Virus record (IMG/VR): IMGVR_UViG_3300017967_005274
Location: 1 to 33,483 of that record
Reading direction: 5' to 3' (one strand)
Source: a virus
DNA length: 33,483 nt
Numbering within the stretch: the stretch's first letter is position 1; each line of letters opens with the position of its first letter. Positions 8,834 through 31,710 of this stretch are shown piece by piece. The position numbers were made by a program, and so were the translations under genes. The notes under the pieces were generated by a model, which worked only from the letters and a program-made list of their open reading frames with translations, made no database searches and had not been told where the DNA came from.

Positions 8834-10132
8834 ATGCCAGCAAAGAAAAAGCAAAACAAAACAAGCCTGCCACCTGTAGCCGAGAAAGCCCTGCGCCCCT
8901 TCATTGACAAGGGAATTGCAAACGGCATCTTCAAAGACGACAAGCAAGTCGTTGAGATGTTCAAGCGCAAAGCCGCTGACCCATCCTTGAAGGACACCAT
9001 CGACACGCTCGGCGGCATCAAGTCGCAAACCGCCCAATCCTTCTTGGCCGACATTGTCCGTGTTGACCTCTCAGCCATCCTCCGCCAACGCCGCTACACC
9101 GCCCACCTTGACGTGTGGCAGGTTCAACACCGAACCGTTGGAGCGGCATCGGGCAACCCCCGCCCCGTCTGTTTCTTGATGGGTCAGGCCGTTGTTGAGG
9201 ACGGCGACTCCGAGATGGAGCCTGCCCTCTTCAAGATGGGTCTTTGGGACGAGGACGCTTCTCTGGGTGACGACATCGAGTCGGGCGGACACTACCAAGC
9301 CGCCGTGACCTGCCGCAACCTTGACGACGCAACCCTCAACCTCAACGCCCTGTCGGGTTTCACCGTGTTCAACGCTGAGGAATACGAGCACCACGATCCC
9401 GTTGAGTTGCTCCGCTCCACCTTTGAGGTGACCCCGATTGCCGACCTTGAGGATGACATTTCACGGGGCCGTGACGACTTCCGATTGGTTGAGGCTCAAG
9501 TGTCCTACTCTGGGGTTCAAAACTCCAAGAACGGTGGGCAGTTTGGCAAAATCATCCTCAAGGACGAGAGCACCATGACGATGGAGGCCATTGAATCTGG
9601 CGACACCCTCAACCTCAACTGCATCTGCGCCACGGACGTTGCCGCTCGATTCGGCAAATACAGTCGCATCCTTGCGTTGGTCACGACCCGTATCAATGGA
9701 GAATACGGACTGTCGGGCAACCTTGAGTGCGCCGTTGGCATCATCACCGTTGCCCCTCCAACCGTTGAAACTCCCGCCGCCGTTGAGCAAAAGGAGGACG
9801 ACGCTTCAGATTATTTCAAAGGCCAACTCGTGAGCCTTGATGATGACGAAGAGGACGACGACGATCAAGAGGACACCGACGCTGAGGACACCGACGCTGA
9901 GGACGACGATGAGGATGAGGCTGAAGAAGCCCCACCCGCCAAGCCCGCCAAAAAGACCTCAAAGAAAGCCGCCCCTGCACCCCCAGAGGACGACGATGAG
10001 GATGAGGACGACGACGGGTGGCTCGACGACGCTGAGGACGACGCTGAGGACGACAGCACCCCTGCTGAAGCCGCTGACGACAACGACTCCGACGATGACG
10101 ATGAAGAGGACGACTGGGACGACTGGGAATGA
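8834..10132 (+). CDS. single-stranded DNA-binding protein with long acidic tail
   Basis: This 432-residue protein begins with a Lys-rich stretch, has a beta-rich body and ends in an acidic segment covering its last 100 residues. That segment is interrupted by a Lys/Pro/Ala-rich island and ends DDWDDWE. An acidic tail with terminal aromatic residues is the hallmark of phage and bacterial SSBs (T4 gp32, T7 gp2.5), where it recruits polymerase, helicase and nuclease. Position between a helicase candidate and a recombination ATPase fits. The start ATG has AAAGGAG upstream; an upstream in-frame extension to 8720 would overlap the AAA+ gene and is rejected. OB folds are inferred, not demonstrated, and an RPA-like identity is equally possible. 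Confidence 0.65.
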   Translation: MPAKKKQNKTSLPPVAEKALRPFIDKGIANGIFKDDKQVVEMFKRKAADPSLKDTIDTLGGIKSQTAQSFLADIVRVDLSAILRQRRYTAHLDVWQVQHRTVGAASGNPRPVCFLMGQAVVEDGDSEMEPALFKMGLWDEDASLGDDIESGGHYQAAVTCRNLDDATLNLNALSGFTVFNAEEYEHHDPVELLRSTFEVTPIADLEDDISRGRDDFRLVEAQVSYSGVQNSKNGGQFGKIILKDESTMTMEAIESGDTLNLNCICATDVAARFGKYSRILALVTTRINGEYGLSGNLECAVGIITVAPPTVETPAAVEQKEDDASDYFKGQLVSLDDDEEDDDDQEDTDAEDTDAEDDDEDEAEEAPPAKPAKKTSKKAAPAPPEDDDEDEDDDGWLDDAEDDAEDDSTPAEAADDNDSDDDDEEDDWDDWE

Positions 10133-12724: not shown

Positions 12725-12778
12725 ACCTGAACCCCCTACGGGGGTTCAGGTCATCTTCGCTTCTTTCTTCTTTCTCAT
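12725..12778 (+). terminator. hairpin plus pyrimidine-rich terminator
   Basis: A perfect 12-bp inverted repeat (12725-12736 with 12740-12751, loop TAC) starts ten bases after a stop codon and is followed by a T/C-rich run (TTCTTTCTTCTTTCTC). This is the clearest terminator in the window and divides the replication block into two transcripts. The loop TAC is the same as in the hairpin at 2333-2355. Confidence 0.75.
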
Positions 12779-18810: not shown

Positions 18811-21437
18811 TTGTTGGTGTGACCTATCAAGACGACCCGTTGGTCACCAAACTACGGGTGAAGAACCTCAAGGGTGAAGCGTTCAACATTGAAGTCACGG
18901 GCATCCAGCCACGGTTTTGGACGGAGAAGAACCCAGCGGGGATGCAACTCCCAGAGCAGGTGAAGTCCGCCAAACCCTCTCGGTTCAAGTCAATCACAGG
19001 CACACCGCTCTTTGAAATCCGTGTGGACAAACCCTCCGATATCCGTGAAGTGAGGGACTTCTTCTATCCCCACTATTGTGCTGACGTTCCGTGGGCGACC
19101 TTTGTCCGCTGGATCGCAGGCTGGACAGCCGTTATTGAAGCCAATACCGCCCTCCTCAACACGTCCAGGAGGTTCAGGCCAAAGGACATCACACCGTCCG
19201 AGGTGGAGGTTGGGTTGTTCAAGTTGGACACGATGTATTTTGACATTGAAACGGAGGATTGGCTGGACGTTGATGACCCACAGGGGCGGATAGTCAGCAT
19301 CGCCGTCTATGACGACAAGACCGACCGCCACATCGTTGCGACCACGGCTCATACGTCCGAGCGTCAAGTCCGCCGCTTCTTATCCTCTCAAGACGCTCTC
19401 CACTCCGTTGTTGAGCATGACAACGACATCCCGCCGCTCGACGCTGACAAAATCCACGTCGTGAACATTGAGGGCGCGGATGAGAACGAGCGTGAAGCGG
19501 CTTTGATGTGGTGGTTCAAGCACACGATTGAGCAATTCAACCCAGATGTGATCGCCGCACACAACGGGAGGGACTACGATATCCCGTATTGCCGCAACCG
19601 TTGTCGCCTTCAAAACAAAGCCATGCGGAGGGAATACGGAGATAACGTCCCCGTGTTTCACCGATACCCACGCCTGTTTGAAGCCCGCCGCCCTCTCCGC
19701 CCCCACTTTGACACCAAGATGGCCTACGCCGAGCAGGTTCAAGGGGCGGCATTGACAACGGGGCAGTCGTCTTTGGCGTGGATGGGTGGGGCAACGTTGG
19801 GCTACGGCAAAGTGCCGAGAACATCCATCGTTGACATGATGAAGAACGACCCCATGATGCTGGCCGTTTACAACATCTGGGACAACGTGGTCGCCGCACG
19901 ATCCATGCAGAAACTTGACCTCGTGGGCTTTTACACCTTCAAGACGGCCTGGCACAACTCCACGCTACACAACGCCCACAGCAATATGATGCTGGTTGAG
20001 GACATGATGGGGCATTTGCTCTGGGAGCGTGATACCGTCATGCCCTCTTTGGACGTAGTGCGAGAACGGTTGCCGACCAGCGGCATTGAGCAGGGCGGGT
20101 TTGTCATGGATGCACCCACGGGCGTTTGGCTCAACGCTATGGAGTTGGACAATTCAAAGGAATACCCCTCCGCCATCATCAGCGGCAACCTTGACCCAGC
20201 AACCAAAGTGAACCCAGCGGATTATCCAGACGGCTTCCCCTTCCCCGTGGCTACAACTCCATCGGGGCGCGTATATCGACAAGACTTTGAAGGCTTGATG
20301 CCCAGCATTCTGCGCTACCTCGCAACCAACCGTGACATCGTGCGGGCTGAGATGGGCGAGGCTGAACGTGCGGGCAACTACGACGAAGCGGAACGGCTCA
20401 ACAAAAAGCAACGGGTCATGAAGGAGAATATGAACAGTTGGTATGGGGTGTTGGGTTCTGGGCGGACTGAAAAGACCCGTGGCCGTCCGTTCCGTTTGGC
20501 CGACCCTGAAATTGGGAGCGACATCACGGAGATAGCACGTGTTCACAACAATTGGAACAAGGAATGGATCGAGCGGGTCGGCGTCGATTTCACCGTTGGC
20601 GAGGGTGCTCAAGGATTGAGATTTGAAAACATTGATAAACCCCCAGCCCATGTCGGCATGGTTCTCCGCTTCAAGACCATCTACCAAGACACGGACTCGT
20701 GCAAGGTCAGCATCATCAATCAGCCCCCAGATATGACACCAGCACAGGTGGCGACCGTTGCCCACCTTCTATGTGATGGGCTGAACGAGTCCTTCCATGA
20801 GTTTGTTCAAACGACGCTGGGCATTCCTAAGAATGAGTTTTTTGAAATCAAGCCCGACGCTTTCTATGCTCGATATTTCCAATGGGGCGTGAAGAAGCGG
20901 TATGCCTACGTTGACTATGACGGCAAGTTTGGCTACCGTGGCGTGGAGATGCGACGATCCTCAACGCCGCCAGCCGTCAAGACGTTTCAGCAGTCCCTCT
21001 TTGATTGCATTCTGGGCGGTGGTGAACGTGGCGATATCAACGCCCTCGTCCGCAGGCTGAAGGATGAAATGCTGTCCGATGCTTTCACCGATGCTGACTT
21101 CGGCCAACCCCACGGCATCAAGAAGCCAGGAACGATGGCTCATCGAGCCGCCATGTGGAGCAACGCCAACCTTGACACGCACTTTGAGTTGGGCGACAAG
21201 CCTGTGATATACACGGCTCAATCAACCCCCAACGGGTTGCCAGCGAACCGCATGGTCGCCCTTGAATGGGGTGAGAACCCAGCCGACTGGGGCGTGGTTG
21301 TGGATCGTGAAGCCAGCATCACCCGCCTCTTTGCTAACTCCAACTCCTTCGCCGCCATTTTGGGCGCGTTCAAAACGTCATGGGAGCGGGCGTTGGCGGG
21401 CATGGGGCAGGCTGACATGGGAGACTGGTTTGCTTGA
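18786..21437 (+). CDS. polB: family B DNA polymerase with proofreading exonuclease
   Basis: This 883-residue replicative polymerase shows Exo I FDIE (152-155), Exo II HNGRDYD (259-265) and Exo III YNIWDN. Polymerase motif A is written LDNSKEYPS (D455), motif B is NSWYG (550-554), motif C is YQDTDS (633-638), and KKRYA follows. Both exonuclease and polymerase sites look intact. Motif A has NSKEYPS where most family members have a FxSLYPS-type sequence. It would be tethered by the PCNA-like clamp. ATG 18786 is chosen on promoter spacing; GTG 18774 adds four residues. The stop overlaps the next TTG. Confidence 0.95.
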   Translation: MVQKTPLLIVGVTYQDDPLVTKLRVKNLKGEAFNIEVTGIQPRFWTEKNPAGMQLPEQVKSAKPSRFKSITGTPLFEIRVDKPSDIREVRDFFYPHYCADVPWATFVRWIAGWTAVIEANTALLNTSRRFRPKDITPSEVEVGLFKLDTMYFDIETEDWLDVDDPQGRIVSIAVYDDKTDRHIVATTAHTSERQVRRFLSSQDALHSVVEHDNDIPPLDADKIHVVNIEGADENEREAALMWWFKHTIEQFNPDVIAAHNGRDYDIPYCRNRCRLQNKAMRREYGDNVPVFHRYPRLFEARRPLRPHFDTKMAYAEQVQGAALTTGQSSLAWMGGATLGYGKVPRTSIVDMMKNDPMMLAVYNIWDNVVAARSMQKLDLVGFYTFKTAWHNSTLHNAHSNMMLVEDMMGHLLWERDTVMPSLDVVRERLPTSGIEQGGFVMDAPTGVWLNAMELDNSKEYPSAIISGNLDPATKVNPADYPDGFPFPVATTPSGRVYRQDFEGLMPSILRYLATNRDIVRAEMGEAERAGNYDEAERLNKKQRVMKENMNSWYGVLGSGRTEKTRGRPFRLADPEIGSDITEIARVHNNWNKEWIERVGVDFTVGEGAQGLRFENIDKPPAHVGMVLRFKTIYQDTDSCKVSIINQPPDMTPAQVATVAHLLCDGLNESFHEFVQTTLGIPKNEFFEIKPDAFYARYFQWGVKKRYAYVDYDGKFGYRGVEMRRSSTPPAVKTFQQSLFDCILGGGERGDINALVRRLKDEMLSDAFTDADFGQPHGIKKPGTMAHRAAMWSNANLDTHFELGDKPVIYTAQSTPNGLPANRMVALEWGENPADWGVVVDREASITRLFANSNSFAAILGAFKTSWERALAGMGQADMGDWFA

Positions 21438-21998: not shown

Positions 21999-23177
21999 AT
22001 GGGAATGATTGAAAATATGAGAGACGCAGTTGAAATGGCTGGCGGTCGCATGAGCGAGGAGGCATACCTCCGAGACGTGCAAACGCTAATCGAGAAGGAC
22101 GGGGGCAACACCAGCCTTGAGAGCCTACGAGCAAACGCCTTCGCAAAGCGACGCATGGTCCCCGCAGGGGTCATGCGTGTCACCATTGGCGACACCAAAG
22201 AAGTCTGGCTACAAGAAAAGGCTGAAGAAATCCTGAGCGGGACGCTCTCTGGAATGCCTCAAGCCACCAAAATTGAAATGGACTACCACACGGGAGAAGG
22301 AGCATACAACGGCATCGCCGTCCGTGGCGTTGACGAATTCCCTCAGCACCTTCACGCCAACATTTACCGACCAGGCTCGGTCATGTTTGAAGAAACCAGC
22401 AAGGGCGAGATGCGCTTGATGAGCATCGCCTACCGCACAGGCCACCACATCATGTTCACGGGGCCAAAAGGTTGCGGCAAAACGATGGCCGTCAAAGCCT
22501 TCGCCAGCCACATTGGTCTGCCCGTTCTCCGTGTCAATTGCTCGGAGGGCATCACCGAAGACCAGTTTATTGGCTACCGCACCATCGTCGACGGCGAGGT
22601 TGTTTGGATTGACGGCCTTTTGCCTATCGCCATGCGCCACGGTTGCCTTTTGCTTTTGGATGAGTTTAACGGAGCACGAGCCGAGATTCTGATCGCTCTC
22701 AACAGTGTCGGAGACAGCGGCACGTTGCTCCTTCCGCTCAACAACAACGAGGTCATCAAGGCACACCCGTCCTTCCGCATGGTTGCGACCATGAACCCCG
22801 TTGACGGCTACGAAGGCGTTCAGCAGGTCAATCAAGCAACGAAAGACCGCTTCGCCCTTCAACTCGACTTTGATTATCTGGAAGCCGACAAGGAGATTAG
22901 CGTCATCCAAAAGGTCAGCGGCATCACCAACCCACCGCTCGCCCGTGAATTGGTGGCCCTCGCCAACGACCTCCGCCGTCTCCGCCGAGACCACACGCTG
23001 GAGTCCGACACCTCGACCCGCACCCTCATTCAAATGATGGAGATGAGCGGCGACCTCAACGTCACCGAGTTGGTTGACTACATCATGGTCGGCAAATACG
23101 AAGCCCATGAAGCCGAGGATGTCCGCATGGCCGCACGAGCCCGCCTCTCCGCCTACGGTGCAGTCCCGTCCGCTTGA
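21999..23177 (+). CDS. MoxR/CobS-like AAA+ ATPase
   Basis: This 392-residue protein has Walker A GPKGCGKT (155-162), Walker B LLLLDEFNGA (217-226), a sensor-1-like ATMNP and arginines in TKDRFALQL, the pattern of MoxR/CbbQ/CobS AAA+ proteins. Such ATPases remodel protein complexes together with a VWA-domain partner, and a CobT-like VWA protein is encoded at 24366 with the same 43-bp promoter. The first 140 residues are unfamiliar. No cobaltochelatase large subunit or cobalamin gene is nearby, so cobalt insertion is unlikely; remodelling of a viral or host complex is inferred. The ATG has a good AAAGGAG site. Confidence 0.85.
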   Translation: MGMIENMRDAVEMAGGRMSEEAYLRDVQTLIEKDGGNTSLESLRANAFAKRRMVPAGVMRVTIGDTKEVWLQEKAEEILSGTLSGMPQATKIEMDYHTGEGAYNGIAVRGVDEFPQHLHANIYRPGSVMFEETSKGEMRLMSIAYRTGHHIMFTGPKGCGKTMAVKAFASHIGLPVLRVNCSEGITEDQFIGYRTIVDGEVVWIDGLLPIAMRHGCLLLLDEFNGARAEILIALNSVGDSGTLLLPLNNNEVIKAHPSFRMVATMNPVDGYEGVQQVNQATKDRFALQLDFDYLEADKEISVIQKVSGITNPPLARELVALANDLRRLRRDHTLESDTSTRTLIQMMEMSGDLNVTELVDYIMVGKYEAHEAEDVRMAARARLSAYGAVPSA

Positions 23178-23202
23178 TGCTCTCTGGGGCAGGTTGTTCC
23201 AC

Positions 23203-23246
23203 GGTGGCGGGGGTGCTTGCCCCACGCATTCCCAACCCCCGCCACC
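23203..23246 (+). terminator. strong hairpin between AAA+ gene and next promoter
   Basis: A perfect 12-bp inverted repeat (GGTGGCGGGGGT 23203-23214 with 23235-23246, 20-base loop) starts 25 bases after the AAA+ stop codon. No T-run follows, but a second small hairpin ACCCTC/GAGGGT (23247-23252 with 23261-23266) overlaps the next promoter motif. It may end or process the AAA+ transcript. Confidence 0.45.
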
Positions 23247-23254
23247 ACCCTCTC

Positions 23255-23270
23255 ATTGAAGAGGGTGGGG
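23255..23270 (+). promoter_or_regulatory. GAGGGTGGGG-class promoter for 23286 gene
   Basis: ATTGAAGAGGGTGGGG ends 16 bases before the ATG at 23286. As at 13293, an upstream CCTC-type segment can pair with the G-rich part, leaving the TATA-like bases in the loop. Confidence 0.55.
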
Positions 23271-23285
23271 AACGACGAGCAAACC

Positions 23286-23444
23286 ATGAGCGACGCAGAC
23301 CTCAAACATGAAATCCAAAGACTGACGACCCGCATTGAGGCGTTGGAGCGGCTGGTTGAAAATCTGGCCGATGCCCTCCGCCCTCGACCAAAGGACTACG
23401 CCCAGCGACGGATCGGGGACGACTTTGACACCCGCCACGGATGA
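23286..23444 (+). CDS. 52-residue coiled-coil protein
   Basis: This short acidic/basic helical protein has a heptad pattern through residues 5-31 (Leu, Ile and Val spacing in LKHEIQRLTTRIEALERL). The start is set by the promoter motif 16 bases upstream. Its second half overlaps the start region of the clamp-loader-like gene in another frame. It resembles SlyX-type small coiled coils in general form only. It may instead be a translated leader that couples expression of the next gene. Confidence 0.5.
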   Translation: MSDADLKHEIQRLTTRIEALERLVENLADALRPRPKDYAQRRIGDDFDTRHG

Positions 23445-24303
23445 GTTGGTTGGGGCAAAGCGACGATACGCCACGCTCCGCTCATGGCTTCAAGGATGGA
23501 AGGAGGGCAACCCCTCCCAGAACCCGCTGGTCATAGTGGGCGACGTTGGTTGCGGGAAAAGCACCGTAGCAACGGCACACGCCGCTTCGTTTGGCTTTGA
23601 CCTCATAACCTCCGATGGAGGGGAGGAACGGCACACAGACCACTTCAAACGGCTCAATTCGGACGGGCGCATGCCGACCTTCTTTGGCGAGCGTCGTTTG
23701 GTGCTAATCGACGACGCACACCTCATCAACTCTCGGTGCTGGGATATCGTCCGTTCCTATGGGACGGCGTTCCCCTGCATCATCACCTGCACCGATGCAA
23801 ACGATGTGCCGTATGCCGTCCGCAAATCTGGGGTCACGTGGACGTTGGAGAACCCCACCAAAGCAGACCTCGTTGAATACGGGGAGCGGTTGGTTGAACG
23901 TCTGGGGCTGGCTCATCAATACGCTGACATCGCCAACGCCGCTGAGACGATCCAGTCGTGGCGGGGCATGAAACACGCACTGCTGACAACGCCCCCTGGC
24001 TTTGACTTTCACGCCAGCGTATTCACACCAATACGGGTCGGACATCAGCAGGTTGCATCGATTTTGGCGGGGCAATACCAGCACCCAATTTCAGTGCATC
24101 CAATGGCGTTGCTTGCCGCCGCCGAATACAACCACGCCGACCCCGACGATCTGAAGGTGGCGAATTGGCTCTATTCTCAGTCTTGGGCGGTTGAAGGACT
24201 CAGCCAAGTCGCCTCGTCCTATCTGGGGACGCTGAGGGCAAAGACACAGGATAAGCCACCGTTCCGCAAACGTTCAATCCGTGGGGCAACACGGAGAACA
24301 TGA
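23371..24303 (+). CDS. clamp loader large subunit-like AAA+ ATPase
   Basis: This protein of about 310 residues has TDELVGAKRRYATLRSWL before Walker A GDVGCGKS (57-64). It continues with SFGFDLITSD, which follows the RFC large-subunit pattern, and has Walker B LVLIDDAH (110-117). The C-terminal part is helical, like clamp-loader collar domains, and ends in a basic tail. It would pair with the small RFC subunit to load the clamp. Start choice is uncertain: ATG 23371 overlaps the coiled-coil gene by 74 bases; TTG 23425 or 23335 are alternatives. It lacks the BRCT and long C-terminal region of cellular RFC-L. Confidence 0.65.
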   Translation: MPSALDQRTTPSDGSGTTLTPATDELVGAKRRYATLRSWLQGWKEGNPSQNPLVIVGDVGCGKSTVATAHAASFGFDLITSDGGEERHTDHFKRLNSDGRMPTFFGERRLVLIDDAHLINSRCWDIVRSYGTAFPCIITCTDANDVPYAVRKSGVTWTLENPTKADLVEYGERLVERLGLAHQYADIANAAETIQSWRGMKHALLTTPPGFDFHASVFTPIRVGHQQVASILAGQYQHPISVHPMALLAAAEYNHADPDDLKVANWLYSQSWAVEGLSQVASSYLGTLRAKTQDKPPFRKRSIRGATRRT

Positions 24304-24306
24304 AAC

Positions 24307-24349
24307 CTCAATGGTTCGTGGTTTCAATGTGTTGGGTTTATATGGTGTG
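24307..24349 (+). promoter_or_regulatory. GGGTTTATATG-class promoter, copy 2 of 43-bp perfect repeat
   Basis: It is identical over 43 bases to 21887-21929. TTTATATG (24337-24344) ends 22 bases before the ATG at 24366, which fits a leaderless mRNA. The exact identity over a region wider than a TATA box suggests a shared operator for the AAA+ and VWA genes. Confidence 0.75.
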
Positions 24350-24365
24350 GCGTAGTGCGTAGACC

Positions 24366-26393
24366 ATGAGCCGAGCAAACTCATGGAAACTACGAGCACG
24401 ACAAGCCCGACTGACACGCATCGCACGTATCATGTCTGGTGAATTGGAAGAAATCGGGGCTAAGGTGGAGCGTGTCATCCTCAACCGTCAAGGCAAAGCA
24501 TCGACGGACGGCAAGAACGTCTACATCCCCGAAACCTACGACACGGGCGATGAGGCTCTGGAGTTGATGATGCAAGAAGCCGTCCTCGCCCATGAAGCCG
24601 CAGGCCACATGAGGTATACCGACTTTGGCTCATGGCACAAACTCTCGGAGACGGTCAAGTCTGGAGACGACGACCAACTCATCCACGACTTTGTGAATAT
24701 CCTTGAGGACGCTCGTGTCAATCACCTCCTCTCTCAGGATTTTCCAGGGTCGGGCAAGCGACTTCATGTCAGCCAGCAGGTGTTCATGCAACGGCACAAA
24801 GACCACTGGGCTAAGGCCGACTCCGCCGACGAGAGCCTCGACCCCAAAGCCGCCATCGTTGCGATGATGACGGAGGCCATTATTCACGAGCCACACTTCA
24901 ACACGGATCGTGAAACCGTCTGCACCTTCATGGATGAGGTTCGCCCTCTTCTCAACAACGCCATCGCCCAGCCCGACACCCCTGCGGTCATCAAGCAGGC
25001 TCGACGGTTGGTTGAAGTGTTCCGCACTTATTGGCCTGCCTTTGATGAATACGGAGAGCCGCAGGGTGGCTCTGGCGAAGGCATCATCCTTGACGACATG
25101 ACCCCCGAACAGGTTAAGCGCATGAAAGAGGCTCAAGAGCGGGGCGATGTCAAAGTGGTGAAGGTCAGCAAAGCCCGTTTCAATGACATGAAGAAGGCCA
25201 AGAAGCCCGAAGCCGCTGAGGACACCCCAGAGGGCGAGGAATCGTCCGCTGGTGGTGATGAGGGGGACAACCCATCCGAAGGCGACACGGGCGACGAGAG
25301 CGGCGATTCTGGCGATGCTTGCGCTGATGCTGACGCTGACGACCAAGCCGACCTCGATGAGGCTGGCGACGCTCGTGGAGCACGTGAGCAGGAGTTTGGC
25401 ATTGACTACAACCAAAATGAGGACGGCGATATTGACCGCCTCTTTGCTGAGTTGACTGAGGCTTTGGAGTCCGAGAGTGACCAAGCCGCCGACATGGAGC
25501 ACGACTTCAACGAAGAGGCTGGGGACTCCCGACAGGACATTGACGGCGGGATTATCAAGCGACATGAAATCCGCATCACCCACGGGACCGACGATTTGGT
25601 CCGCCGTGGTGTTTCCGCCGTGGATTCATGGGCGGCAGAATACGACAGCACCATCAAGCAACACAACACGCAAATCAAGACCATGAAGAACGAACTCCGC
25701 CGCATTATCAAGGGGCGGGACTCCCGCTTCACGGACGGGCTGAAGAAGGGCGACCTCGACGACCGCCGCCTTTGGCAACACCGAACCAACGACCGCCTGT
25801 TCCGCAAGAAAGACCAGCCCAAGAAGGCCGAGGCCAATGTGCTCATTTTGGTTGACGCATCTGGGTCAATGGGTGCAGGCACTCGAGCGTCCAGCGCAAG
25901 TGAATGCGCCGCCGTGGTCACCGAGGTCATGGACTCTTTAGGCTTTGGTTGCGAGGTTGTTGACTTCAATTCAGATGGAGCATCCGCCAGCGGCTACACG
26001 TCCATGCGTGTCCGCAAGGGCATGAACGCCCCCTTGAACCGAATCACCAAAGCCGCCATCCGCGCGCCGTTTGTTGGCTCTCAAAACTCGGACGGCTACG
26101 CAGTGCAGTGGTGTCTTGACCGCTTGAAGGGCATGAAGGGCAACCGCATGCTCTTTGTCATCAGCGACGGACAACCCGCTGGCCCATACGACAAGGACTA
26201 CCGCAACGGCGAAGCACACTTGAAGGCGGTTGTCGCCAACGCTCCAAAGGACATCGGTTTGTTCTCGATTGGCATTGACGGCATGGACACGAGCAGGTTT
26301 TACCCCAACGGGGCAACCTGCAACGCCCACGAATTGACGGCCAAAGCCATGCCAATCATCCGCCGCATGGTCCGCAAAGTCCGAGCCGCTTGA
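24366..26393 (+). CDS. CobT-like VWA-domain protein
   Basis: This 675-residue protein ends in a von Willebrand A domain with a MIDAS site DASGS (497-501), and TSMRVRKG and ISDGQP segments follow in the right order. The N-terminal third contains HEAAGHMRYTDF (76-87), similar to the conserved histidine/glutamate segment of CobT and related VWA partners. A long acidic low-complexity stretch lies at about 280-345. This layout matches CobT partners of MoxR/CobS ATPases, and the ATPase gene at 21999 carries the same promoter. The pair probably forms an ATP-driven remodelling machine; its target is unknown. It is read from a leaderless-type start. Confidence 0.8.
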   Translation: MSRANSWKLRARQARLTRIARIMSGELEEIGAKVERVILNRQGKASTDGKNVYIPETYDTGDEALELMMQEAVLAHEAAGHMRYTDFGSWHKLSETVKSGDDDQLIHDFVNILEDARVNHLLSQDFPGSGKRLHVSQQVFMQRHKDHWAKADSADESLDPKAAIVAMMTEAIIHEPHFNTDRETVCTFMDEVRPLLNNAIAQPDTPAVIKQARRLVEVFRTYWPAFDEYGEPQGGSGEGIILDDMTPEQVKRMKEAQERGDVKVVKVSKARFNDMKKAKKPEAAEDTPEGEESSAGGDEGDNPSEGDTGDESGDSGDACADADADDQADLDEAGDARGAREQEFGIDYNQNEDGDIDRLFAELTEALESESDQAADMEHDFNEEAGDSRQDIDGGIIKRHEIRITHGTDDLVRRGVSAVDSWAAEYDSTIKQHNTQIKTMKNELRRIIKGRDSRFTDGLKKGDLDDRRLWQHRTNDRLFRKKDQPKKAEANVLILVDASGSMGAGTRASSASECAAVVTEVMDSLGFGCEVVDFNSDGASASGYTSMRVRKGMNAPLNRITKAAIRAPFVGSQNSDGYAVQWCLDRLKGMKGNRMLFVISDGQPAGPYDKDYRNGEAHLKAVVANAPKDIGLFSIGIDGMDTSRFYPNGATCNAHELTAKAMPIIRRMVRKVRAA

Positions 26394-27922: not shown

Positions 27923-28402
27923 ATGCCAAAGAAACTGCCCAAAGCCCTACGCCAAACCATTTTGAAAGCCCTGGCCGTCAACGACGACGGAACGCTGACC
28001 GCATCACAAATTGCTGATCGTGTCAACGCCGACCCAGACCTGCCAGAGAATCAACGCAAGAACGCCAAGCAAATGGCACACGTGATGAAGCAACTCGCCA
28101 GAGAGCACGAGAAGGTTGAGCAGGTTGTCCTCTCATCCAACGGCATCTCCCACCACGGGAACGCCCGCTACCGTGTCGGCTACACCGCGCCCGCCTTGAC
28201 GTTGGCTGAGGCCGTCGATGCTGAACCAACCACGCCCAAACCCAAACTGAAGCAAATCACCGTCAACCTCCCGCCCGACTGCGTTGAATACCTCAAGGCA
28301 TCAAAGAGCGTCCGTGGACTCTCGGCTGGTCGTGCGATTGAGCAACTCATCCGAGCGGACTTGGACGTGAATGGCCTGCCTACAGAACCCAATAACGACT
28401 GA
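27923..28402 (+). CDS. regulator with winged-helix and ribbon-helix-helix domains
   Basis: This 159-residue protein has an N-terminal winged-helix-like region (about 10-87) with LTASQIADRV as the likely turn. After a Pro/Lys linker comes a ribbon-helix-helix segment (109-147): the strand KQITVNLP, then two helices ending in AIEQLIRADL. Both parts are typical DNA-binding units, so a transcription regulator is likely. GGAGTGAT gives the start. It lies directly before inverted CATTGATAAA repeats at 28496-28540, a plausible operator. The open frame continues upstream to 27734 inside the previous gene, but that part has no support. Confidence 0.65.
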   Translation: MPKKLPKALRQTILKALAVNDDGTLTASQIADRVNADPDLPENQRKNAKQMAHVMKQLAREHEKVEQVVLSSNGISHHGNARYRVGYTAPALTLAEAVDAEPTTPKPKLKQITVNLPPDCVEYLKASKSVRGLSAGRAIEQLIRADLDVNGLPTEPNND

Positions 28403-28495
28403 GGGTTGGCGATCCACACGGTTTGAGCCGTTGCGAATCCGTCAAACTTGACACACCCGAAACGCCGCCGAGCCTCAGCGCAGGTGGGCTTACGG

Positions 28496-28540
28496 TTTAT
28501 CAATGTTTTGAAATCATTGATAAATCGGAACATTGATAAA
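28496..28540 (+). promoter_or_regulatory. CATTGATAAA promoter with inverted second copy
   Basis: TTTATCAATG (28496-28505) and CATTGATAAA (28515-28524) form a perfect 10-bp inverted repeat with a 9-base spacer, and a third copy (28531-28540) continues GAGAACCCTGCTGG like the promoters at 2475 and 12792. The third copy ends 22 bases before 28562, one base before the first hairpin of the candidate RNA. The inverted pair is a likely binding site for a dimeric regulator. The remaining gene-free bases 28403-28495 hold only weak pairing (GTTTGA 28421-28426 with 28442-28447). Confidence 0.65.
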
Positions 28541-28561
28541 GAGAACCCTGCTGGGTTGGTT

Positions 28562-28860
28562 TGCTGGGGCAACAACCCCAGCCGAAGGGAATCGACGCAA
28601 AGAGGTTGAGCCTCCCCTATTGCCACGGGGAGCGCAAGTCCGTATTCAGAAATAGCGTCCCTTTGGCTGGGGTTGCCCAGCGTCAATCGCTGAAAGACCC
28701 GCCTACCCAGCGGATCGGACGGCGGGGCGACCCCCACATCCCGTCTGACGGGAGAAGGCGAGCGGGACAAGGTTTCCGCCGATTGAAGGGGACTAAGCCA
28801 TAGCCCGCTGGGGAGCGGGAGGGGGTCGTCCTAAATCCACGCATTCACCCACCCCCCGTT
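28562..28860 (+). ncRNA. candidate structured non-coding RNA, about 300 nt
   Basis: This gene-free stretch has its own promoter. Its predicted 5' end (28562) lies one base before hairpin 28563-28569/28576-28582. A long-range helix joins 28582-28590 with 28658-28666 (nine pairs, one G-U) around an inner hairpin 28612-28617/28627-28632. Further helices are 28667-28671/28676-28680 (or the alternative 28678-28682/28688-28692), 28698-28703/28721-28726, 28740-28744/28748-28752, 28757-28760/28777-28780 and 28804-28809/28814-28819. Conserved-looking single-stranded purine runs lie between them. Pairing was found by eye. An 80-codon TTG frame crosses it, but its product looks like chance translation. 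It matches no RNA family I can name. Confidence 0.55.
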
Positions 28861-28874
28861 TGATAACGGTGGGC
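28860..28874 (+). promoter_or_regulatory. GGTGGG-class promoter for 28890 gene
   Basis: TTGATAACGGTGGGC ends 16 bases before the ATG at 28890. CCGTT (28856-28860) can pair with AACGG (28865-28869), so the end of the candidate RNA and this promoter overlap in a hairpin. Confidence 0.5.
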
Positions 28875-28889
28875 GTTCACCTCCAATCT

Positions 28890-29090
28890 ATGCCTCAATA
28901 CCGCATCCGTGTTGACATGGGGACGGACGGAGTCGTTGATACGACCGCCGACACCATCAGCCAAGCCTTGAAGTCAGCCTACGAAGAATGCAAAGCCAGA
29001 CGGACAAACCCCGTGAACGTGACGGTCACGCAGGTGGTTGAGCAGGGAAAATGGGAAGCCAGCCGACCAGGACGCTCTATCAACTCTTGA
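28890..29090 (+). CDS. small hypothetical protein
   Basis: This is a 66-residue protein with a strand-helix-strand pattern (YRIRVDMG, then a helix around SQALKSAYEECKA, then VNVTVTQVVE), similar in form to small phage proteins of unknown role. ATG 28890 is chosen from the promoter spacing; an upstream start at 28860 would overlap the promoter. Its end overlaps the next gene by 40 bases. Confidence 0.55.
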   Translation: MPQYRIRVDMGTDGVVDTTADTISQALKSAYEECKARRTNPVNVTVTQVVEQGKWEASRPGRSINS

Positions 29091-29630: not shown

Positions 29631-29911
29631 TTATCTGGGTGGACAAGCATGAAGGCACGACACGTTTGAGGGGCTACGACCGCAAACTCCGCAACATCGT
29701 GACCATGACCGAGACGGACGGCGGGGAGAATTGGAGAATCCAACACTACAAAGAAACCCACGTCATGAAGGCTTCGGGTTGTCCCGATCCCGTCGATTTC
29801 ATCATGCGGCTCATCAGCCCACGCAACGAGGAGCGGTATGACGACATGGCCTTCTTGACCTTCATTAACCACGACACCAACGAATCCATTGAAGTCTGGG
29901 AGATGATTTGA
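29621..29911 (+). CDS. hypothetical protein
   Basis: This is a 96-residue protein with strand-rich first half ([19 protein letters not shown]) and acidic second half, with no metal motif or membrane segment. It begins in the end of the preceding gene and its stop overlaps the tail-fibre ATG (TGATG). Such a small gene next to a fibre could be a fibre chaperone, but this is only positional. Confidence 0.55.
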
Positions 29912-31710
29912 TGGCGAGCCGTTCTGACATTTTGCGGGCTAAACTTGAGGCTCTCGGTGTCAAAGTCCGTGACAATTGGGACTACCGCAGGCTGGCGATT
30001 GAATATCAAGCGGTGAGCGGCATTGGTGTGGATTTGCCGACCGACCTCCAAGACGAGAGGCTGGTCGGTTCAACGTCCAGCAACGTTGCGGCATCGAGCA
30101 CCGATACAGAAACCAATACGACGACCGCTACGTTGGGAATCGGAACGGTTGACACGCTTTCAGCGGGTGCTTCAGCAACTGCTCAAATCGTCGGGACGAC
30201 GCTAAATCTGGGAATCCCAGCGGGTGCTCAAGGAGCAACGGGAGCAACGGGAGCGACAGGACCAACGGGGCCAGCAGGTGCTACGGGTGCTACGGGGGCG
30301 GCTGGGGCTGATGGCGCAGACGGTTTGCCAGGAGCCGATGGCGCAGACGGTGCTGACGGTGCTGACGGCCAAGCCGCCACGATCAGCGTCGGAACGGTCA
30401 CCACGGGTTCAGCGGGGTCATCAGCAACTGTCGCCAACTCTGGGACAACGTCAGCGGCGGTTCTTGATTTCACCATACCTCGTGGCGATACGGGGGCGAC
30501 TGGCCCTCAAGGAGCAACGGGGGCGACTGGCCCAACGGGTGCAACAGGGCCGCAAGGTCCAGCAGGGGCTGATGGAGCAAACGGCCTGGACGGAGCGGAC
30601 GGAGCGGACGGTCAAGCCGCAACCGTGGCGGTCGGCACGATCACAACGGGCGCGGCTGGTTCTTCAGCCACCGTCACCAATTCTGGGACAACGTCTGCCG
30701 CCGTCTTTGATTTCACGATACCCCGTGGGGACACGGGTGCTACAGGGGCGACGGGTGCTACGGGACCAGCAGGGCCACAAGGCATTCAAGGCATTCAAGG
30801 GCCAGCAGGGGCGGACGGTGCAGACGGCCAAGACGGTGCAACAGGACCAGCGGGACCAGCAGGACCAGCAGGGGCTGACGGTGCTGACGGGGCAGACGGG
30901 GCCATAGGACCACAAGGACCACAAGGGCCAGCAGGTGCTGACGGGGCAGACGGTTTGGACGGTGCAATAGGGCCGCAAGGACCAATAGGACCAGCAGGGC
31001 CAGCAGGGGCTGATGGGAACACCATTGACATTTCAGCCTTGACCGCCAACACCCAGATCGCTGACGCAGACCTGCTTCTTCTCGACGATGGGGCAAACGG
31101 CACAAACCGCAAAATCACCTTCACCGAGGTCAAGGAATGGATTCGGGGCGACGGCGTGATGGTCGGTCGTGATGGTGGGGTTCACGAATTGAGGGTGCGG
31201 GACTCCCGTGATGATGGGGAATTGTTGCCCGATTCGGTGGGCGACAAGCAGGTTCGGTTTGACTTCACAGACGACCTCAGCCCCTACACACCCAGCGCAT
31301 ATTGGTCGGGGGTCATGACGCTCAAGGGGTGGGGTGGTTCATACCGAGCGTGGCAGTTGCTTTCATCCGCCTCAAGCGAGGGGACTTCAGCCGTCAACAC
31401 CGAGCCCCTCTATTTTAGAAGCGGAGAGGACAACGTGTGGGGGACTATGCGTGAGATTTTGACGTTCCCAGGAACAACCCCTAACGCTGACGGGATCGCC
31501 AACCAAGTGCTTCAAACAAACGGAGCGGGGACGCTTTCGTGGGCGAGCCTCAATTTTGTGACGGCGGGTCTTGGGGGTCAAGAGCCGTTTAACGTCGTTC
31601 CGCCCGCCACGGGGACAGAATGGTTGGGTGCTCCCCCCGTCACAATTGAAGAAGCCATCAACCGCCTCGCCGTCATCGTATCTGCCATGAATGGCGGGCC
31701 AATCCCTTGA
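29911..31710 (+). CDS. collagen-like tail fibre or spike
   Basis: This 599-residue protein begins with a helical segment of about 50 residues and a Thr/Ser-rich stretch. Gly-X-Y collagen-like repeats then fill about residues 105-370. They are interrupted by two near-identical modules of about 45 residues that end in [13 protein letters not shown]; a third, shorter relative starts near residue 70 ([11 protein letters not shown]). The last 230 residues form a non-repetitive tip ending in an [15 protein letters not shown] helix, as in marine phage fibres. It would trimerise and contact the host surface. The ATG overlaps the previous stop. Confidence 0.85.
30223..31020 (+). repeat. collagen-type coding repeat with duplicated modules
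   Basis: The DNA is built from GGN-containing 9-base units (GGAGCAACG, GCAGACGGT and similar) coding Gly-X-Y, with two copies of a longer non-collagen module near 30373-30500 and 30616-30740. Repeats of this type recombine easily and may vary between related viruses. Confidence 0.85.

Follow-up and report, generated by a model that had tools for sequence, protein, structure and literature searches.

Large structured RNAs of bacterial phages, such as GOLLD and ROOL, have been characterized in their structures, while they have no known function. GOLLD RNAs have one conserved and one variable end, are often longer than 800 nt, and are often located near tRNA genes (PMC12286853). No papers describing such large structured RNAs in tailed viruses of archaea were found in a search of open-access text. 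The RNA family analyzed here is real and previously uncatalogued, and its job is unknown.

The window, which is the whole analyzed stretch of DNA, is a virus record of 33,483 bases (IMGVR_UViG_3300017967_005274). It encodes a family-B DNA polymerase (PolB), a helicase, a homologue of the clamp-loader small subunit, a DNA methylase, and a tail protein. Among deposited phages, the polymerase was closest to those of haloarchaeal tailed viruses (~25% identity), and the clamp loader was ~47% identical to archaeal clamp loaders. Because of these two similarities the virus is treated here as a presumed tailed virus of archaea, the host order of which is not established. Elsewhere in the window, an ORF with long collagen-like GXY repeats, which is possibly a tail fibre, is located at 29908–31710 beside variable small genes, while the region 21999–26393 encodes a pair of a MoxR/CobS-like ATPase and a CobT/VWA-like protein, which is also present in cyanophages.

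The locus lies in a gap of exactly the 487 bases (28403–28889) that had been claimed for it, because it extends from the end of the preceding ORF at 28402 to the leaderless ATG of the following gene at 28890. The features of this gap are as follows:

28496–28505, minus strand: inverted copy of the promoter box, TTTATCAATG, forming a dyad with 28515–28524; possible regulator site
28515–28524, plus strand: upstream one of the two direct promoter boxes, CATTGATAAA; the second follows 16 nt later
28531–28540, plus strand: TATA-like promoter box, CATTGATAAA, taken to drive the RNA; a box is at the identical distance in all eight family members
28562–28564, plus strand: predicted transcription start, from the peak of ATGs 21–23 nt after the box and the 22-nt register in all eight RNAs
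28562–28840, plus strand: noncoding RNA body, with fold z of −4.6 and no Rfam match; the 3′ end is somewhere between ~28831 and 28857
28563–28582, plus strand: 5′-terminal hairpin P1, GCUGGGG-CAACAA-CCCCAGC; found by a held-out covariance model (E 3.3e-8), with a double change (U-A to C-G) and a single change (U-G to U-A) relative to the family
28582–28587, plus strand: conserved CCGAAG after P1, invariant in all eight members
28582–28590, plus strand: 5′ strand of a nine-pair helix (partner 28658–28666), possible in single-sequence folding only
28658–28666, plus strand: 3′ strand of the nine-pair helix, which together with 28666–28681 can join a 24-bp helix that replaces P1
28666–28681, plus strand: hairpin GCUGGG-GUUG-CCCAGC, present when P1 is formed (constrained fold)
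28725–28735, plus strand: 5′ strand of the helix closing the 3′ domain (partner 28821–28831), in the minimum-energy and centroid folds
28821–28831, plus strand: 3′ strand of the helix closing the 3′ domain, in the same two folds
28858–28867, plus strand: promoter box of the next gene, GTTTGATAAC, which ends the RNA unit; the leaderless ATG at 28890 is 22 nt after it

The original prediction had placed a third copy of the promoter in the gap; the box is indeed there, but the count of three was too low. Copies are located at 2475, 12776/12792, 17122, and 28515/28531, and another lies within the PolB gene at 20630. With at most one mismatch allowed, eight box matches were found in the window versus 1.5 expected, and no shuffle reached eight. 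When 58 boxes at 12 loci of the window and its relatives were scanned for ATGs up to 50 bases downstream, 23 ATGs were found at 21–23 nt after the box, while other distances mostly had one to three. This rule sets the predicted transcript start at 28562–28564, at the base of the hairpin 28563–28582, which agrees with the claim that an offset of 22 bases places the RNA 5′ end at its first hairpin. Transcription of the RNA is thus inferred from the promoter rule, without transcript data. Because the next gene has its own box and an ATG 22 nt further on, promoters bound the RNA on both sides. A tandem pair of boxes 16 nt apart is also present at 12776/12792, and in two relatives (L019 and L063) a similar pair lies ahead of the RNA. 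Ahead of the RNA, at 28496–28540, the direct and inverted CATTGATAAA boxes make up a dyad; at the offset expected from the inverted box (28496–28505) the minus strand has neither an ATG nor a gene, and a scan with the dyad promoter pattern found nothing. At three promoters of the window (2475, 12792, and 28531) AACCTGCTGG or its close variant is located between the box and the start.

Scans with the shared 5′ sequence and the two-hairpin pattern identified seven distinct further members of the family in IMG/VR contigs of related viruses (L019, L063, L023, L025, L030, L032, and L026). Several of them have near-identical copies from other samples, and the family comprises only eight distinct sequences, with the window included. 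The immediate IMG/VR neighbours of the window region end before it, and a search from the flanking 504-aa gene gave no relatives. In all eight members the 5′ module consists of the 7-bp hairpin P1 (G(U/C)UGGGG, loop, CCCC, and closing bases) followed by CCGAAG, and the P1 loop is CAACAA in all members except L063. A second hairpin, P2, which is often capped by a GNRA loop, follows CCGAAG in seven of the eight. The model did not find P2 at the family position in the window, which has a different hairpin further downstream (~28610–28632). In each of the eight members the TATA-like box ends exactly 22 nt before P1, and the predicted probability of P1 in the relatives is 0.76–1.0. The covariance model built without the window and L026 recovered the window with E of 3.3e-8 (32.8 bits), and L026 with E of 2.4e-16. 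P1 is paired in 100% of alignment cells, and one of its pairs carries a double change in the window, from U-A to C-G. In P2, double changes are seen at two pairs, one of which comes from a shifted L026 row, while the clean one is a change from C-G to U-A in L063. Hence, the proposal of a structured RNA with its own viral promoter is supported by homologous modules observed in seven relatives, in the same register, by the held-out model (E = 3e-8), and by compensatory changes.

Among 390 Thermoplasmatota genomes, the 5′ module was found only once, as a coincidence within coding sequence. The only exact match in 84,980 cellular genomes (L033:6593–6616, 24 nt) is antisense in an apparent rpoD gene of a Thermoplasmata MAG; it was judged a coincidence, because about one match is expected by chance, the match lacks the promoter register, and no other of the Thermoplasmatota genomes matched. 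Pattern matches in L022, L083, L085, and L087 were attributed to chance and read as coding sequence. A covarying long-range helix in L019 was dropped, because the local P1 hairpin, which is common to all members, accounts for the bases concerned.

The original prediction of a structured RNA of ~300 bases is consistent with the strong folding of the region starting at 28562. The minimum free energy (MFE) of 28562–28841 was −136.9 kcal/mol, with z of −4.6, and none of 200 shuffles was as low; the 3′ limit of the RNA is an inference based on the last helix and the promoter that follows. At this unconstrained minimum, however, a 24-bp helix between 28563–28590 and 28658–28683 replaces P1, while with P1 forced the window RNA folds at −126.7 kcal/mol, which makes the alternative 10.2 kcal/mol more stable than the P1 fold. 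In silico co-transcriptional folding gave P1 as the predicted state until ~108 nt are transcribed. It remains open whether P1 and the 24-bp helix constitute a switch or whether P1 is held by a partner. The nine-pair long-range helix noticed initially can form, but it is absorbed into the longer helix competing with P1 at the unconstrained minimum, and its conservation has not been shown. Similarly, the compensatory changes to be looked for in the individual helices were present in the family hairpins, but the long-range helices have no individual support from covariation in the window lineage, since no close relative reaches this region. The modeled 3′ body of the window RNA therefore rests on single-sequence folding, as the window lineage has no second member.

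The bodies downstream of the 5′ module were also compared among the relatives. L023, L025, and L030 have ~205 nt in common. The 62 pairs predicted there are formed to 94.6% and include three double compensatory changes, versus at most 45% formed when the partners were slid. L030 contains ~190 extra nt between P2 and this common body. The body of L032 is different and folds with z of −6.0, and the fold z values of L025 and L019 are −4.3 and −3.2, respectively. L019 and L063 agree in the first 70 nt at the 5′ end and in a CUGGG-CCCAG hairpin at the 3′ end, with little in common between them. The L026 RNA is longer, and near its end there is a hairpin with TTTTTT after it. This comparison shows that the family combines a 5′ handle that stays fixed with a strongly folded body that changes freely and is unrelated between groups.

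Other RNA-like units were noticed in the relatives. L023, L025, and L032 have a second promoter downstream of the RNA (in the region ~+250 to +500 relative to P1), and after it come one or two copies of GCGCATACCGAGAATCCC..GGGCAAAGTTCTCGCTCCCTGCGC with the appearance of nested-helix modules. A common CTTCATATAGGAG stretch was rejected as an RNA module, because it is better read as a second promoter. A second, smaller unit is located beside a tail gene (L043:5091–5170, the same in L045, and the minus strand of L037 near 9850–9925). It also starts 22 nt after a TATA-like box, has no Rfam match, and is followed in L043 and L045 by a T-rich terminator-like sequence. Its ends pair, as GAGG..GACAGACCC/GGGUCUGUC..CCUC versus GAGA..GGACCCC/GGGGUCC..UCUC, which are compensatory changes by eye.

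Comparison with Rfam gave no match in the window at the gathering score, as the original prediction had anticipated in finding no resemblance to RNase P, SRP, group I, or group II RNAs. For 28380–28920 only chance matches at E of 3–10 were obtained, with none meaningful up to E = 10, and the relatives matched neither GOLLD, ROOL, nor any other family. Covariance models or ARAGORN also gave no match to RNase P, SRP, group I, group II, tmRNA, or tRNA, and neither the window nor ten fetched loci yielded any tRNAs. These data bear on the possibility that the RNA is a structural RNA like GOLLD or ROOL, which acts alone or as an oligomer in late infection, as a scaffold, a container, or a ribosome-bound RNA, and not in anti-defence. 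Such RNAs are also phage-encoded and ornate, without a protein frame, and in GOLLD, too, one end is conserved and the other variable (PMC12286853). However, the lack of Rfam matches and of tRNAs, and the length of ~280 nt compared to >800 nt of many GOLLDs, make this explanation unlikely, although it survives better than the others.

It is less likely still that the locus is a replication element, either through a transcript that would prime or license replication of the DNA, or through an origin formed by the GC-rich hairpins with their CATTGATA repeats. The tandem and inverted boxes just upstream, and the fact that the virus encodes PolB and a clamp-loader homologue, could be consistent with this role. 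On the other hand, the GC skew has a local minimum near 28–29 kb in the window without a consistent switch at the RNA, and G005 has no clear switch at the RNA either, so that an origin is not supported by GC skew. The placement of the RNA relative to homologous genes varies, and the same promoter type also serves protein genes. Nevertheless, a role in DNA, for example in replication, is not excluded by sequence alone.

The placement of the RNA differs among the relatives, as do the downstream genes. In a relative with 53% identity (L007/L009) the flanking genes and the promoter are retained, and the promoter drives a leaderless ORF of 146 aa instead of the RNA. This ORF was present in two of the 19 related records searched, both from this relative, in which a whole-record search located the RNA 5′ end elsewhere, upstream of the portal gene. 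The observed distribution is patchy, with 30 of 46 related records having no model match at E ≤ 1, and weak matches looking like chance. That a protein gene can replace the RNA at this promoter and between these flanks suggests that the RNA behaves as swappable accessory cargo, as far as can be judged from genome comparison. The differing positions, constant 5′ end, and variable body could also be explained by a mobile non-autonomous element or an intron-like insertion; this is improbable, because the RNA always starts at a viral promoter and not within genes, its groups have no common 3′ end, and Rfam gave no group I or group II match. Even less probable is a cis-acting leader of the downstream gene, similar to a riboswitch or attenuator. 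While the RNA is upstream of a same-strand ORF in the window (28890) and in L019, the downstream gene of the window has its own box 22 nt before the ATG, downstream genes differ, and the next gene is convergent to the RNA in L023, L025, L030, and L032.

A protein frame conserved in relatives would have refuted the RNA interpretation, and none was kept: every frame of each relative tested has stops, except in L032, and no conserved reading frame was found across the relatives. A fast-evolving small protein gene, such as the 80-aa TTG frame at 28561, is hardly credible, because, while the window frame 28561–28803 is open and some frames in GC-rich sequence are long by chance, in L019 and L030 the corresponding frame reaches a stop after ~18 codons, a 2-nt indel inside P1 and the conserved block breaks it in L063, and the conserved block is a hairpin with compensatory changes. 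That the locus is a noncoding RNA gene can therefore be stated with high confidence.

The observed promoter register, the conservation starting from the transcript start, and the protein gene at the RNA position in a relative argue for a separate accessory RNA, with action in trans inferred, rather than for a leader or an origin. In the explanation that we favor, and consider reasonably probable as a whole, the locus would be a gene for a structured noncoding RNA of ~270–295 nt in a tailed, PolB-encoding archaeal virus, with a viral TATA-like promoter that would start transcription at the base of the 5′-terminal hairpin. The constant 5′ module (P1, CCGAAG, and usually P2) would serve as a functional handle, to which a conserved partner of viral or host origin most likely binds, although this partner is inferred. 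The fast-changing body, built from long helices and exchangeable insertions, may be a variable effector or scaffold, and the RNA would act in trans as a moron-like accessory gene. The predicted minimum-energy fold of the window, in which a longer helix replaces P1, is evidence against this explanation. The most likely, weakly supported function would be the binding or titration of a host factor, resulting in counter-defence or host takeover. This role is favored because it explains the patchiness, the rapid change, and the fixed handle with a fast-evolving body, but it is a tentative inference without direct evidence. It is a more speculative generalization that archaeal tailed viruses carry exchangeable RNA genes at promoter-marked sites, with a constant handle and a free body, as RNA factors of counter-defence or host takeover. 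If true, such factors would be comparable to protein morons. With its constant 5′ module, precise start, and varying bodies, the family sets the functional part apart from the variable one, so that fishing for partners and structural work are straightforward.

Among described systems, ROOL is similar to the window RNA in being an ornate RNA of unknown role encoded by phages or prophages (PMC12286853), while it differs in that the window RNA has no Rfam match and the members of its family are largely unrelated outside of the 5′ module. GOLLD has in common with it the viral origin, large size, complex fold, lack of a frame, and one conserved and one variable end (PMC12286853). However, the conserved end is the 3′ one in GOLLD and the 5′ one in the window family, and the window RNA is shorter, belongs to an archaeal virus, and has no Rfam match, and no tRNAs were found near it. 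Hence, by analogy, the window RNA perhaps works like GOLLD or ROOL, without being shown to be one of them. The virus itself resembles the Magrovirales, an order of Poseidoniales viruses, which are likewise tailed viruses of archaea that encode PolB replication genes of their own (PMC12999244); this is a likeness only. The RNA anti-CRISPRs (Racr) are also small viral noncoding RNAs (PMC10651486) and provide an analogy of mechanism only, with the difference that Racrs mimic CRISPR repeats.
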